A stretch of 64,000 nt of DNA from Sapientia aquatica. Lineage in GTDB: Bacteria > Pseudomonadota > Gammaproteobacteria > Burkholderiales > Burkholderiaceae_D. Below are positions 5,719 through 11,371 of this stretch, piece after piece. The translations under genes and the position numbers were made by a program. The notes under the pieces were generated by a model. The model made no database searches. It saw only the letters and a list, made by a program, of their open reading frames with translations, and had not been told where the DNA came from. The stretch covers positions 253,371-317,370 of the forward strand of contig NZ_SMYL01000003.1 of the NCBI RefSeq assembly GCF_004358105.1. The letters are read 5' to 3'. Numbering within the stretch: position 1 is the stretch's first letter; each line of letters opens with the position of its first letter.

Positions 5719-6357
5719 TTACTTCAAAAGACCGGCTAATTCCACCGCTGTTTTGACCGCCATTTTGTCAAAAATATTGGCGCGATGGACTTCTACGGTA
5801 CGCATGCTAATTCCCAATTCGTCAGCGATCACTTTGTTCATTTTGCCCAGCAATATCAAATCCAGCACTTCGCGTTCGCGCGTCGTCAAACCGGCTAACC
5901 GCTCATACACTAACGCTAATTCACCTTCCTGACGCGACAAGGCCAACGCTTCTTGAACCCGATCAAAAAGAGCGTTATCGTCAAACGGTTTTTCGCAGAA
6001 ATCAAATGCGCCGCGCTTTAATGCATCGACCGCCATCGGAACGTCGCCATGACCAGTAATAAAAATCACTGGCAAGCGCTTGGTTAATTGTTGCGCCGCC
6101 ATCAAGTCAAAGGTCGCAATGCCGCTCAAGCCATCCATGCGCACGTCGAGCAACACGCAGTCACCAGCCGGATCGAATTTGAATTTATTGTCTTTGTTGG
6201 ACTCGTCATTGGCAGCCGGATACAGATGCGCAAAGTGATCAAAAGTCGCCAAAAATTGTTCGCCACTGGAATAACTCACACACGGCAATTGGCGCGATTT
6301 CGCCATCCAAATGAGCGCGTCGCGCAAGTCTGCATCGTCGTCAACAATGTGTAACAT
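5719..6357 (-). CDS. dctR: DctR/FixJ-type response regulator
   Basis: The receiver domain has the acidic pair DDD near residue 6, phospho-acceptor Asp71 in LLDVRM, and the conserved Lys in CEKPF. A LuxR-type HTH follows (about 148-205, TTREREVLDL and MRTVEVHRANIF). Asp71 lies further in than the usual position near 54, because a hydrophilic insert occupies about residues 42-66. The gene follows a large sensor kinase by two bases, and both diverge from a TRAP binding protein gene. This layout matches DctS/DctR of Rhodobacter capsulatus, which controls C4-dicarboxylate uptake. The true ligand here is not known. Confidence 0.85.
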   Translation of the reverse strand: MLHIVDDDADLRDALIWMAKSRQLPCVSYSSGEQFLATFDHFAHLYPAANDESNKDNKFKFDPAGDCVLLDVRMDGLSGIATFDLMAAQQLTKRLPVIFITGHGDVPMAVDALKRGAFDFCEKPFDDNALFDRVQEALALSRQEGELALVYERLAGLTTREREVLDLILLGKMNKVIADELGISMRTVEVHRANIFDKMAVKTAVELAGLLK

Positions 6358-6359
6358 GG

Positions 6360-8399
6360 TTATCCTTTTTGTGTGTCTGTTGGTAGATCTGTGGGTAGCT
6401 CAGTTGGTAAATCTATGGGTGTATCGGTTTGCGCATGCGCTTGCGGATTCGCCAGCGGCAACGTAAAGCTAAAAATTGTTCCGCCATTTGGATTATCCCG
6501 ATACGTTAGCTGACCGCCGTGGAATTCGATAATCGTGCGGCAAATATTTAATCCCATTCCCATGCCTTCGGATTTGGTCGAAAAGAACGGGGAAAACAAA
6601 CGTTCAGCCACTTCCGGTGGAATGCCTGTTCCGTGATCGATGACTTCGGTCAAAACGTAGTTATCGACCCGTTTTACTTCGATTTGCAAAATTCGCTGCG
6701 TTAAAGTCAGTTCTTGCATTGCTTGCAGCGCATTACGAGTTAAATTCAGAATCACCTGCTCTAATGAAATCGCGTCAACTAATACATCGGGCAGCGGATC
6801 ATCGATGTAAATTTCTACTCCGATCAAATACGATTTGGCCTGCAATTTTATCAGAGGCAAGATGCTATTGAAGATGGCCATTAATTGCAGCGGCACCCGG
6901 TTCGGCTCACGCTTGGCGACAAAGCCGTGCACGCTACGAATAATCTGCCCCGCGCGCTGCGCTTGATTTTGCATTTGAGTCAACGCTGGCTGCAGCATTT
7001 CAGCATCGAGATTGCCCGACTTCATCATGTTTAATGCGCCCGTGGCGTAACTCGAAATCGCGGCCAACGGTTGATTTAACTCGTGCGCCATCACGGAAGC
7101 CAATTCACCCATCGTCGCCAAGCGGGCGCTGCTTTCTAAACGTTCTTCGTGTTCGCGTAACACTTGTTCCGATTTTTTACGTTCGCTAATGTCCAGAATC
7201 GAACCCATCCAGCCAGTTTGTTCGCCATCGTCGTTGAGCAACGCAGATTCATAAATCAAGACCGGAATTCGGTGCCCGTCGGCGTGTTTATAGACGGTTT
7301 CAAAGCCATTTAACGAATCGTAATTGCTTGAATTGGAGGAGCGCTTTTTATAACTCTCAATTGCCTCGGACGCCCAAAAAACCATAGGCGCTTTTTGTCC
7401 AAGCAACTGATCTTCGCGGTAGCCCACCATGTCGCAAAAAGCTTGATTCACATAGACCAATTCGCCGTCCATGCTGCGCACTCGCAGTCCAGTGACGACC
7501 GATTTTTCCATCGCGCTTCGGAATGCGATCTGCTCGCGTAACGCTGTTTCGGCTGCTTGGCGACGCAAAATATCGCGCCACAAGGCCCACAAACTCCACA
7601 GCAAACCTAAGCCCATTAAGACAACCGCCGCGACCAGATAATTGGAAAGAAGTTTCGGCGCTTCTTTAATGCTATTCGTTTTGAGGATTAAGTTAACTCC
7701 GGACAAATTCAGGCTACGGCTGTGCGTATATACATTGCGTCCGTAACCGCCATCGGAGCGCTGCGCAAAAACGTTATCGTCCAAATCGCTCAAGCTGATT
7801 TGATTGTCTTTGGCAAACCACCACGGCACCATGTTTTCCAAAATCACCGACATTTTGTAGGTCAACACCAAGCTGCCGATGTACTGATCATCCTTAAACA
7901 GCGGTAAGTGATAATCCATAAAAATGGCTCGATCTTGCGCTTCTTGCACCGCTGGTTCGCTGTATTGGGGAGTTCGACTTTCGCGCGCGTGTTCAATCGC
8001 TTCTTGCGACAACGGCGACATATCGTCGAGCTTAAATTCGCGTGTGCTGTATCGGACATGATCGTTGGCATCCAACCAAACTAATTGTTGTAATTCTGGG
8101 TGACTTTCAATCAAATCAGAAAAACGTTCTTTTAGCTGTTCAGAAACTTTACTATTAGCGATAATAGTATCTCCAAGGAAACGTAAATTTTCCTCGTTAC
8201 GCAATAAATGAAAACGAATTCCCTGCTCAACCCATAACGTATCGGCAATTAATTGCTCTTGACGATTTCTGAATTCAATCTTTTGAGATTGCCAAGGAAG
8301 CAAGATCAAGACCGGCAAAATCAGTATCGCCATTAACATCGGCGTGACCCAATGCTGTTTTAGAAAGGGCAGGCGTTTTTCGGAGGGGTGGTTATCCAC
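6360..8399 (-). CDS. dctS: DctS-like membrane sensor histidine kinase with PAS domain
   Basis: Two membrane helices (about 19-35 and 252-272) flank a periplasmic sensing domain of about 215 residues. A PAS domain lies at about 290-410. The kinase core has an H-box ASVMAHELNQPLAAISSY, N-box LNLTRNALQAM and G-box GMGMGLNICRTIIEFHGG. At 679 residues it is close in size to R. capsulatus DctS. The start is a GTG (8399). The last residues are a small PTDLPTEL repeat of no clear role. It is transcribed with the FixJ-type regulator and probably senses a solute bound by, or related to, the adjacent DctP. Confidence 0.85.
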   Translation of the reverse strand: MDNHPSEKRLPFLKQHWVTPMLMAILILPVLILLPWQSQKIEFRNRQEQLIADTLWVEQGIRFHLLRNEENLRFLGDTIIANSKVSEQLKERFSDLIESHPELQQLVWLDANDHVRYSTREFKLDDMSPLSQEAIEHARESRTPQYSEPAVQEAQDRAIFMDYHLPLFKDDQYIGSLVLTYKMSVILENMVPWWFAKDNQISLSDLDDNVFAQRSDGGYGRNVYTHSRSLNLSGVNLILKTNSIKEAPKLLSNYLVAAVVLMGLGLLWSLWALWRDILRRQAAETALREQIAFRSAMEKSVVTGLRVRSMDGELVYVNQAFCDMVGYREDQLLGQKAPMVFWASEAIESYKKRSSNSSNYDSLNGFETVYKHADGHRIPVLIYESALLNDDGEQTGWMGSILDISERKKSEQVLREHEERLESSARLATMGELASVMAHELNQPLAAISSYATGALNMMKSGNLDAEMLQPALTQMQNQAQRAGQIIRSVHGFVAKREPNRVPLQLMAIFNSILPLIKLQAKSYLIGVEIYIDDPLPDVLVDAISLEQVILNLTRNALQAMQELTLTQRILQIEVKRVDNYVLTEVIDHGTGIPPEVAERLFSPFFSTKSEGMGMGLNICRTIIEFHGGQLTYRDNPNGGTIFSFTLPLANPQAHAQTDTPIDLPTELPTDLPTDTQKG

Positions 8400-8576
8400 A
8401 GTGGCTTTTAGTTGAAAAATTACGGAAAATGTAAAATTACTTTACGTAAACATGATGTATCTCGGAGAACCACAAAATTGTCGCTGCAAAGCACGCATCA
8501 CGTGCTGAAACTGAGTAATAGTTAAGTTGGCAGGCAAGGTTTTGCGCAAGTTCCAAAATAACCTAAGAAATCAAAA

Positions 8577-9596
8577 ATGCAACGCTTCACACATTATGCC
8601 TTGTTATTTATTGCTCTGGCTATAACAAATGGTAGTTACGCTCAATCGACGATTGTAATCAAGTTCAGTCACGTTGCCAGCATCAGTTCACCACGAGGAA
8701 TGGCTGCCGCTCGCTTTAAAGAGTTGGCCGAGTTGATGACAAAAGGTCGGGTTCGCGTCGATATTTATGCCAACGGACAACTTTATAAAGATAATGAAGA
8801 ACTAGAAGCCTTGCAACTCAACGCCGTGCAAATGCTGGTGCCACCGCTGTCTAAATTTTCCGCCTTAGGAATCCGCGAATTTGAAGTGTTTGATTTGCCC
8901 TATTTATTTCCTAATTACGACGGCCTGCATCGGGTCACTCAAGGGCCGATTGGGCGCGACTTATTAAATAAGCTCGACAGCAAAGGCATGGTTGGTTTGG
9001 GTTATTGGGATGGAGGATTTAAAAATATCTCCGCCAATCGCCCCATCCACACTCCTAACGATATGCGCGGTCTGCGTATTCGAATTCCCCCTTCCAAAGT
9101 ACTCGATAGCCAAATGCGCGCACTCGGAGCGACGCCATGGGCCTTAACCTACCCCGCTGTCGTCGAATCGCTGCGGAATAATTTCATCGATGGCTCGGAA
9201 AACCCGCCGACTAATTTTATTAGCCGCCCCGCTGGTGGCTCACAAAAGTTTTTGACGCTGACCAATCATGGTTATTTAGGCTACGCGGTGGTGGTGAATA
9301 AGGATTTTTGGGATGAGTTGCCTTCAGACATTCGGGTTCAACTCAGCAACGCGATGTTTGAAACCACGAAATACGCTAACAACATTTCTCAACAACAAAA
9401 TGAGCAAGACTTGGCCACTATTAAAAAATCAGGAAAAACCGTCGTCTACGATTTGACCGATAACGAAAAAGACCAGTGGCGCAAGGCCCTCATTCCCATT
9501 CAGCAGCAAATGGAAAATCGTCTGGGCAAAGAATTAATTAATGCAATTAATCGCCAATTGGGTAACCCCAGCGATTTCAATTTAATGGTGCATTGA
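8577..9596 (+). CDS. dctP: TRAP transporter substrate-binding protein, DctP family
   Basis: The first 22 residues are a cleavable signal ending in YAQ. The mature protein has the DctP family pattern, including IKFSHV at the start, the GxxYKDNEELEALQLNAVQM segment, the Arg-rich GLRIRIPPSKV that holds the ligand carboxylate, and the RNNFIDGSENPP region. It would bind a carboxylate in the periplasm and deliver it to DctQM membrane subunits. No dctQ or dctM is beside it: about 400 bases without a gene follow, then ogt. It may use a pump encoded elsewhere, or act as a sensing protein for the adjacent DctS-like kinase. Confidence 0.92.
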   Translation: MQRFTHYALLFIALAITNGSYAQSTIVIKFSHVASISSPRGMAAARFKELAELMTKGRVRVDIYANGQLYKDNEELEALQLNAVQMLVPPLSKFSALGIREFEVFDLPYLFPNYDGLHRVTQGPIGRDLLNKLDSKGMVGLGYWDGGFKNISANRPIHTPNDMRGLRIRIPPSKVLDSQMRALGATPWALTYPAVVESLRNNFIDGSENPPTNFISRPAGGSQKFLTLTNHGYLGYAVVVNKDFWDELPSDIRVQLSNAMFETTKYANNISQQQNEQDLATIKKSGKTVVYDLTDNEKDQWRKALIPIQQQMENRLGKELINAINRQLGNPSDFNLMVH

Positions 9597-9750
9597 ATAG
9601 ACTAGCTAACCACATTTGCACAAGATTTCTGCAATTAACGCGCTTACCAAAATATTCTTGATAAGACAACTCAAATTTTATTCCTTTTGCGCGGCTTTTC
9701 TCATATTTACCACATTTTGTTCGTCTGGCTTATTTCTTGATATGTTCAAA

Positions 9751-9779
9751 TTGCATATCTAAATACACTGTGCTATCTT
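9751..9779 (+). promoter_or_regulatory. Predicted sigma-70 promoter
   Basis: TTGCAT (9751-9756) and TATCTT (9774-9779) are spaced by exactly 17 bases. It points into a non-coding stretch that ends in a perfect terminator at 9913-9941. Confidence 0.45.
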
Positions 9780-9785
9780 CGGTTT

Positions 9786-9941
9786 CAGTCGAAGTTTTAG
9801 CAGGTGTAAAAAAATCGGAGCCATCCGAAACAACATCGAGGAGACCGCGTTTCAATATAGCTGAGCATGCATAAAACACATGACATTAGCAGTAGACGCG
9901 AAAGTAGTTTTGAAGGCATATCTTTTGATATGCCTTTTTTG
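9786..9941 (+). ncRNA. Candidate small RNA or leader upstream of ogt
   Basis: A predicted promoter at 9751-9779 and a perfect terminator at 9913-9941 bound a stretch of about 155 bases with no credible gene. Inside is a short hairpin TCGGAGCCATCCGA and a purine-rich GAGGAGA with no start codon at a useful distance. I do not recognise an RNA family. It could be an independent small RNA, or a leader whose terminator controls ogt-xerD. The evidence is only promoter plus terminator. Confidence 0.4.
9913..9941 (+). terminator. Perfect intrinsic terminator before ogt
   Basis: AAGGCATATC and GATATGCCTT form a perfect 10-bp stem with a TTTT loop, followed by a T-rich tail. It lies inside the longest open frame of ogt, which argues that ogt starts downstream at 9994. 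Confidence 0.85.
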
Positions 9942-9993
9942 TTTTTGGCGCCGCCATTACAATGACACCCACTATGTAAAGCTCGCTCTGACT

Positions 9994-10482
9994 ATGGATA
10001 TGCATTCACGCTTTTGCGCCATCATCCCCGCTCCTTTTGGTGCGATGGGAATTCGGACAGAAAACAATCAATTACGCGAACTCGTTTATCTGCCCGCCAA
10101 CATCCCATTAAAAACACCCACGTCGGCGCTCGCCATCGAAGCGGCACAACAAATTACTAGCTACTTCGATCATCCCGCATTCCAATTCACTCTACCTTTG
10201 GCCGCCCTGGGAACCGAACATCAGCGCAAAGTGTGGCGCGCAATTGAGCAAATCCCAATGGGGCAAGTAACGAACTACGGCGCGATCGCCAAACATATCG
10301 GCTCCGCACCACGCGCCGTTGGTCAAGCTTGCGGCGCGAATTGGTTCCCGCTCATCATCCCCTGCCACCGCGTTACGGCGGCTAACGGCATTGGCGGTTT
10401 TGCCAATCACAACGAAGCGGCAGGTTTCCATTCGAATGTAAAAAAATGGTTGTTAGCGCACGAAGGTGTTCATGGATATTAA
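9994..10482 (+). CDS. ogt: Methylated-DNA-[protein]-cysteine S-methyltransferase
   Basis: This suicide repair protein moves the methyl group from O6-methylguanine to its own cysteine. The active-site motif IPCHRV is intact, and the DNA-binding part (VWRAIEQIPMGQVTNYGAIAKHIG) is typical. The ATG at 9994 starts a 162-residue protein of normal size. The frame stays open upstream to 9880, but that stretch contains a perfect terminator and is very unlikely to be translated. The end overlaps the xerD start by 11 bases, so the two genes are probably co-expressed. Confidence 0.92.
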   Translation: MDMHSRFCAIIPAPFGAMGIRTENNQLRELVYLPANIPLKTPTSALAIEAAQQITSYFDHPAFQFTLPLAALGTEHQRKVWRAIEQIPMGQVTNYGAIAKHIGSAPRAVGQACGANWFPLIIPCHRVTAANGIGGFANHNEAAGFHSNVKKWLLAHEGVHGY

Positions 10483-11371
10483 TGCGTTAATGCAAGCGGA
10501 AATCGACGAATTTTGCGACACGCTTTGGTTGGAAGATGGTTTGTCAAAAAATACCTTGGAAGCGTATCGACGCGATCTAACGCTGTTTGCCAAATGGCGT
10601 CACGCGCAAAATATGATGTCGTTACTGGATGCTAGTGCCGACAACATTAACAACTATTTCACCTACCAAAAAGATAGCAAAGCCACGAGCGCCAACCGCC
10701 GCTTGGCGGTCTTCAAACGCTTCTACCAATTCGCCATTCGCCATCAAAAAATCAGCGTCGATCCAACCTTAAAATTAGCCTCAGCCAAAACTCCCTCGCG
10801 CAATATTCAAACGCTCAGCGAATCCCAAGTTGAAGCCCTGCTAGCGGCTCCTGACACCACAACGCCACTCGGATTACGGGACCGCTGCATGCTCGAATTA
10901 ATTTACGCCAGCGGCTTGCGGGTGACCGAATTGGTGCTCATTACGATGCAAGAATTAAGCTTAAACGACAACGTCTTGCGCATCACTGGCAAAGGTAGCA
11001 AAACGCGTTTAGTGCCGTTCGGTGAAATCGCCAGCAACTGGATACGGCGCTACGTCAACGAAGCACGGCCTCAGATTATGAACGGTCAGATCGACGATGC
11101 GCTGTTCGTTACCGCGCGCGGCGCAGCGATGACGCGCCAGATGTTTTGGGTGCTGATTAAAAAATACGCACGTCAAGCGGACATCAACGCCCCACTCTCG
11201 CCGCACACCCTGCGCCACGCCTTCGCCACGCACTTAATCAATCACGGCGCTGACCTGCGTGTAGTCCAGCTTTTACTCGGTCATTCAGATATTTCAACCA
11301 CCCAAATTTATACGCACGTTGCGCGCGAGCGATTGAAGCAATTACACAAAGATCATCATCCACGCGGATGA
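10472..11371 (+). CDS. xerD: Tyrosine recombinase XerD
   Basis: XerD and XerC resolve chromosome dimers at dif during division. The N-terminal SAM-like domain (about 5-90) has the pattern DxLWLEDGLSKNTLEAYRRDL. The catalytic domain has the Arg in ASGLRVTEL, the HTLRHAFATHL motif, the LLGHSDISTTQIY box and the Tyr nucleophile in IYTHV. Length is 299 residues. The ATG at 10472 has AAGG just upstream and is preferred over an in-frame GTG two codons earlier. XerD rather than XerC is the better fit, but this call rests on overall resemblance. Confidence 0.9.
   Translation: MDINALMQAEIDEFCDTLWLEDGLSKNTLEAYRRDLTLFAKWRHAQNMMSLLDASADNINNYFTYQKDSKATSANRRLAVFKRFYQFAIRHQKISVDPTLKLASAKTPSRNIQTLSESQVEALLAAPDTTTPLGLRDRCMLELIYASGLRVTELVLITMQELSLNDNVLRITGKGSKTRLVPFGEIASNWIRRYVNEARPQIMNGQIDDALFVTARGAAMTRQMFWVLIKKYARQADINAPLSPHTLRHAFATHLINHGADLRVVQLLLGHSDISTTQIYTHVARERLKQLHKDHHPRG

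Follow-up and report, generated by a model that had tools for sequence, protein, structure and literature searches.

SroC antagonises a small RNA (sRNA) that represses transporters, is itself tied to a transporter gene and is processed from an mRNA. It is a sponge of GcvB, and in Caulobacter the sponge CrfA inactivates four sibling sRNAs, SisA-D (both according to the available passages of PMC12559287). Among sRNAs of the Rfam family RF02278, NcS27 of Burkholderia cenocepacia has a CU-rich 5′ end that is predicted to cover ribosome binding sites; cells over-expressing it grow more slowly, whereas growth rose with an artificial RNA antisense to this 5′ end (available passages of PMC5688073). 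In Bordetella, S17S acts through its Site 1 on BP2158, with an 8/8 match and compensating mutations (available passages of PMC11722255). In the accessible parts of the open-access literature searched, we found no sponge for RF02278 sRNAs, and the available passages of PMC5688073 and related papers gave no answer as to an off-switch for them.

Here, the gap before ogt and xerD in a 64-kb stretch of DNA (the whole stretch analysed, hereafter the window, from genome G000) very probably encodes a free structured RNA, which we predict from sequence comparisons to be, most likely, a natural sponge for the RF02278 sRNAs of the same cell. Conservation, structure, synteny, complementarity and co-occurrence were computed; that the RNA is transcribed, is helped by Hfq, forms the duplex in the cell and acts in the proposed direction is inferred. 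Like SroC, the RNA would antagonise an sRNA type that represses transporters, and it shares with SroC a tie to a transporter gene, as upstream tandem copies of the RNA adjoin tctA in some relatives; it differs in that SroC is processed from an mRNA, whereas the RNA here is preceded by a promoter of its own and is a predicted sponge. The likeness to CrfA is that one small RNA faces the shared conserved stretch of sibling sRNAs, with links to Hfq and carbon metabolism, although CrfA belongs to another bacterial class and its siblings to the alphaR8 family, not RF02278, and although CrfA is experimentally proven whereas the predicted sponge here is likened to it by layout and not by sequence comparison (CrfA according to the available passages of PMC12559287). 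With RF02278 (NcS27/bdhR1; relative S17S), the proposed partner, the RNA has 8–9 nt in common in antisense; it is not a member of that family, having another structure and the opposite motif sense, with no gathering match to RF02278 in the window and no RF02278 among the region's weak matches.

The promoter TTGCAT-17-TATCTT and the perfect 10-bp terminator stem with T run described in an earlier note both lie in the sequence exactly as noted (Table 1), with a TG one base ahead of the promoter's −10. Taken alone, as bare patterns, the two elements are no better than chance: in a scan of positions 9000-10800, the consensus search did not pick the promoter at 9751-9779 and gave a single site, elsewhere, where shuffles would yield 3.0, and it gave two terminator-like sites, including the RNA's own terminator, where 2.4 would be expected. 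The predicted start of the RNA lies 7 nt past the −10.

Table 1 Predicted features of the locus, in positions of the window
Feature	Positions	Strand	Basis and description
Promoter	9751–9779	+	−35 TTGCAT 9751-9756, 17-base spacer, −10 TATCTT 9774-9779
Predicted small RNA, ~157 nt	~9786–9942	+	Covariance models R1-R3, family-wide matches
Hairpin P2	9815–9828	+	9815-9819/9824-9828; both-side changes in 5/5 pairs (alignment A5), 4/5 (alignment A9)
GAGGAGAC block	9838–9845	+	Complement of RF02278 5′ end GUCUCCUC; conservation 0.86-0.99 per base
Helix P3	9846–9900	+	9846-9852/9894-9900; both-side changes in 7/7 pairs (A9); encloses P4
Helix P4 and variable tip	Inside P3	+	9860-9864/9886-9890; both-side changes in 3/3 pairs (A9)
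Intrinsic terminator	9913–9942	+	Perfect 10-bp stem 9913-9922/9927-9936, then T run
ogt	9994–10482	+	Pfam DNA_binding_1; lies downstream of the RNA and is read here as a unit of its own
xerD	10475–11371	+	Pfam Phage_integrase; constant downstream neighbour

A DNA search recovered the RNA stretch in all four same-genus genomes searched. Mean identity of these relatives to the window, taken per stretch from an alignment of the whole gap, was 0.76 for the promoter (9751-9779), 0.34 for the leader (9780-9796), 0.87 and 0.85 for the two parts of the RNA body (9797-9860 and 9891-9911), 0.62 for the variable tip of the P4 arm (9861-9890) and 0.78 for the terminator (9912-9941), against 0.28-0.46 for the flanking gap (9597-9750 and 9942-9993). 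Two of the four relatives, G002 and G003, have the same −35 and −10 hexamers as the window; in G004 each hexamer differs by one base, and in G001 they are weaker. Because same-genus genomes conserve the unit of promoter, RNA and terminator while the flanking DNA has diverged, we regard the unit as real; stem and promoter, whose conservation the earlier note had proposed to check, are both kept. Further upstream, window positions 5719-9596 encode a response regulator, a histidine kinase (opposite strand) and, standing alone, a binding protein of the DctP type.

The fold of the RNA family comprises, in order, hairpin P2, the unpaired GAGGAGAC block, P3 with P4 and its variable tip, and the terminator. 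Folding of the predicted transcript of the window outdid that of every one of 200 dinucleotide shuffles (z −3.66). Among 47 aligned matches (A5), 22 of the 26 base pairs had changes on both sides, including 7/9 pairs of the terminator helix, and 99.3% of cells could pair, compared with 31-49% in slid controls. Since A5 was fitted to the covariance model, the covariation count was redone on a plain, structure-blind MAFFT alignment (A9; 72 of 95 trimmed sequences, those left out mostly having long tips), in which 14/15 pairs had both-side changes and 92.3% of cells were paired (33-48% in slid controls). RNAalifold applied to A9 predicted P3 and P4 unaided, with both-side changes in 10/10 pairs; P2 was missing from that prediction and was added from the covariance model. 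A mutual-information scan of 102 sequences gave scores of up to 0.99 for pairs within the structure, whereas off-structure pairs with at least 85% standard pairs all scored 0.28 or less; some off-structure column pairs with fewer standard pairs exceeded this value, columns 153/221 reaching 0.45 with 75% standard pairs. The comparison of stems among related genomes suggested in the earlier note thus finds them covarying.

The Rfam search that the earlier note had also called for matched no family at the gathering threshold, either in the window or in 20 other loci (17 of them R1 matches). Weak matches to tsr26 (29 bits versus 141) and to Ysr49, TarB, STnc250, BASRCII26 and ncS54 were all far under the cut-off and were rejected; they rest largely on the terminator. 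Northern-proven Herbaspirillum sRNAs were likewise set aside, the best of six probes matching 20/30 bases across ten Oxalobacteraceae loci (PMC7011215, available parts). Neither xerD nor ogt is named in the accessible main text of PMC7011215 or PMC6337395; the H. seropedicae transcript list belonging to the former may contain the RNA.

The RNA is widespread within one family. A covariance model built from five genus sequences (R1; E ≤ 0.01) matched 195/392 family genomes, and a model without the terminator (R3) found the RNA in 293 of the 392 Oxalobacteraceae genomes (277/346 of good quality; 19/44 genera), leaving 99/392 without a match. Across 399 genomes sampled from the whole order, R3 matched 11, all Oxalobacteraceae; with 13 family members listed in this sample, the 386 genomes outside the family had no match, provided that the list is complete. 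Candidate homologues outside the family, all from model R2 and at most 37.6 bits, were rejected, none being left with R3; the 19 of these loci that were examined (L081-L099) show no XerD and are, by eye, mostly a bare terminator. At named xerD loci, the RNA was present in 64/80, five of these with two copies, in carriers that include Undibacterium, Herbaspirillum, Collimonas, Janthinobacterium, Massilia, Duganella, Rugamonas, Pseudoduganella, Telluria, Herminiimonas and Oxalicibacterium; the remaining 16, including all five from Noviherbaspirillum, had no match of comparable strength, and one of them (L117) retains a similar terminator. Conversely, loci located by the RNA model alone had xerD 3′ of the RNA in 30/30 and 20/20 cases.

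On the upstream side, a scripted grouping of open reading frames (ORFs) at 96 loci gave DctP at 27, DctM at 25 and TctA at 7, where the types were Pfam-confirmed for single examples and some of the picked ORFs, being on the opposite strand, may not be genes. With R3, two copies of the RNA were found in 8/293 genomes, all 8 in one genus. Among named or fetched relatives, tandem copies occur at L060, L061, L105, L110, L112 and L109, and the upstream copy starts at or adjoins the stop codon of tctA (tricarboxylate transporter), like a 3′ UTR-derived RNA.

The link to RF02278, missed by the earlier note, lies in the GAGGAGAC block, which is the RNA's most conserved block and stands outside the covarying helices. 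The window's genome has four RF02278-like RNAs (35-43 bits, under the Rfam cut-off of 50), all carrying GTCTCCTC, the exact reverse complement of the block, at the equal position; the Rfam RF02278 consensus starts UGUCUCCUCCA, and its first seven bases are unpaired. The RNA is therefore complementary to the seed of a known sRNA type in the same cell. One of the four (L189, G000:C33:317981-318043) lies 611 bases past the end of the window. RF02278 matches were found in 42/42 RNA-bearing genomes tested (40/40 plus G000 and G001), with 1-12 matches per genome among the 40 and matches above the cut-off in 29/40. Because RF02278 is also present in genomes without the RNA (17/18 family genomes with no R3 match and 12/19 other-family genomes), it is the broader partner. 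GTCTCCTC was present in 58/60 distinct RF02278 loci from RNA-bearing genomes (60 examined of 221 matches, mostly top-scoring) and was kept in 16/17 family loci and 9/11 other-family loci from genomes with no match for the RNA, and since this motif persists where the RNA was not found, it is not this RNA that holds the motif in place. RF02278 matches are numerous in some Oxalobacteraceae, as if the sRNA multiplies: G043, which has no R3 match, carries 23, and in G139 and G271 several lie less than 30 kb apart.

On the side of the RNA, 102 blocks were collected, two gapped ones were set aside and 100 were counted: 84 are identical to GAGGAGAC, and in 98 every one of the eight pairs with RF02278 is retained, so that the pairing was kept through evolution. 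Of 23 block substitutions, 21 keep the pair, being A2>G (12) or C8>U (9), and two break it; they are spread over several lineages and represent few independent events, as judged without a tree. In an Undibacterium subgroup, the block is GGGGGAGAU, still able to pair with GUCUCCUCC via G-U and U-G, and because RF02278 RNAs from these genomes retain GTCTCCTCC, the change is one of pairing kept by wobble rather than of double compensation. Loci of this subgroup (L111, L116, L125, L150, L153, L174, L233-L239 and L241) have a changed block and flank, together reading GGGGGGGAGATT or the same with a G less, and a different P2 sequence. Given its purine/pyrimidine pattern, an exact block match is expected for 1/256 8-mers, and the match arises partly by nature, because RF02278 seeds are anti-Shine-Dalgarno-like and the block is Shine-Dalgarno-like; in 100/100 sequences, the Watson-Crick run with RF02278 was longer than the one formed with the 3′ end of 16S rRNA. 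A second RF02278 site in the G-rich 5′ segment was considered and rejected, runs of at least 7 occurring in 7/100 sequences versus 9% of shuffles.

Joint folding places the block on RF02278. For the four pairs from the window's genome, 0, 0, 0 and 3 of 200 shuffles were equally good, and across 30 same-genome pairs (26 genomes), at least six block bases lay on RF02278 in 28/30, with at most 3 of 60 shuffles equally good in 27/30; the three failures were G057 (28 of 60) and G268 and G039 (4 of 60 each). Unconstrained duplex energies of the four pairs were ordinary (98, 119, 34 and 22 of 200 shuffles equally good). When the window RNA was folded by itself, the five bases at the 3′ end of the eight-base block were mostly paired (probability unpaired 0.02-0.06); over 100 sequences, the mean unpaired probability of the block was 0.57, exceeding 0.5 in 66.

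As a sponge, the RNA would be a free small RNA transcribed from its own promoter to its own terminator, whose GAGGAGAC(A) block would pair with the RF02278 5′ end UGUCUCCUC. RF02278 sRNAs (NcS27/bdhR1; relative S17S) would use this 5′ end to cover ribosome binding sites on mRNAs for transport and catabolism, such that their capture would free the target mRNAs and restore uptake and growth; a natural antisense of the RF02278 5′ end should, on this model, act like the artificial one. Hfq is present.

Alternatively, the free RNA might act in trans on mRNAs themselves, by way of the block or another region, with the RF02278 match incidental or minor. Its structure and conservation would suit any Hfq-type sRNA, and the block's bases A5 and A7 are never G, although pairing would permit it, and are thus stricter than pairing with RF02278 demands. 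However, the sole near-invariant unpaired block exactly complements the 5′ end of RF02278 and changes in ways that keep that pairing, and the only copy of GTCTCCTC in the 64-kb window is the one in the RNA gene itself (0.44 expected). We therefore consider direct regulation of mRNAs rather unlikely. Complementarity being symmetric, the effect might also run in reverse, with RF02278 sRNAs binding and switching off an RNA whose job lies elsewhere, and the broader distribution of RF02278 would fit such an arrangement. This direction seems improbable to us: a single RNA (in all but 8/293 genomes) facing 1-12 RF02278 matches would suit titration better, as would the spending of the most conserved block on RF02278 5′ ends.

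Slightly less probable still is a protein-binding RNA (a CsrA decoy, a 6S-like RNA or another kind) or a leader in which GAGGAG would serve a tiny ORF as ribosome binding site. The block does contain a GGA motif and Shine-Dalgarno-like letters, the structure is family-wide, and 6S RNA (RF00013) is of similar length, likewise family-wide and upstream of a housekeeping gene. Yet no CsrA was found in the window's genome (0/1; a 98.3% complete draft); its 6S RNA lies elsewhere, above the cut-off at G000:C11:13994-14175, and the window has no RF00013 match; no start codon follows the GAGGAGAC block at ribosome-binding distance in the window, and no reading frame is conserved by eye in alignments A3 and A9; and the complementarity to RF02278 reaches beyond the Shine-Dalgarno core.

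The earlier note had left two readings of the terminator, that it ends a free RNA or that it attenuates the repair gene ogt. For the latter speak the position of the terminator between promoter and ogt and the presence of ogt downstream of the RNA in 94/96 loci. None was found in the other two, and in G003 of the same genus (L023, G003:C14) ogt is missing with the RNA kept directly before xerD. In seven further loci, ogt is about 700 bases further off, and in the two of these seven that were examined, L130 (Herbaspirillum frisingense) and L102 (a Duganella MAG), an opposite-strand Glyoxalase_3 gene stands between RNA and ogt. A −10-like site between terminator and ogt is visible by eye in many loci. 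Because an opposite-strand gene can intervene, ogt can be absent and the mutual-information scan over 102 sequences shows no covarying alternative helix (antiterminator) with the terminator arms, it is very improbable that the RNA serves ogt (or ogt-xerD) as a riboswitch leader or transcription attenuator. The free-RNA half of the earlier reading is thus supported, with its conserved promoter, terminator and covarying structure, its persistence without ogt or across Glyoxalase_3 and its doubling in 8 genomes, and the attenuation half finds no support.

Together, these results describe a structured RNA family that is an addition unmatched by Rfam release 15, and its probable role as an RF02278 sponge bears on how RF02278-type sRNAs, which are widely conserved betaproteobacterial regulators, may be held in check. 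There is about an even chance, in our judgement, that a dedicated, family-wide hub RNA, usually in single copy, titrates several growth-slowing RF02278 siblings beside carboxylate transporter genes. If this is true, RNA-RNA competition would toggle a whole family, including Herbaspirillum, Janthinobacterium, Massilia, Duganella, Undibacterium, Collimonas and others, between uptake and shutdown, and a conserved RNA naturally antisense to the 5′ end of RF02278 would offer a direct, testable genetic handle on these sRNAs.
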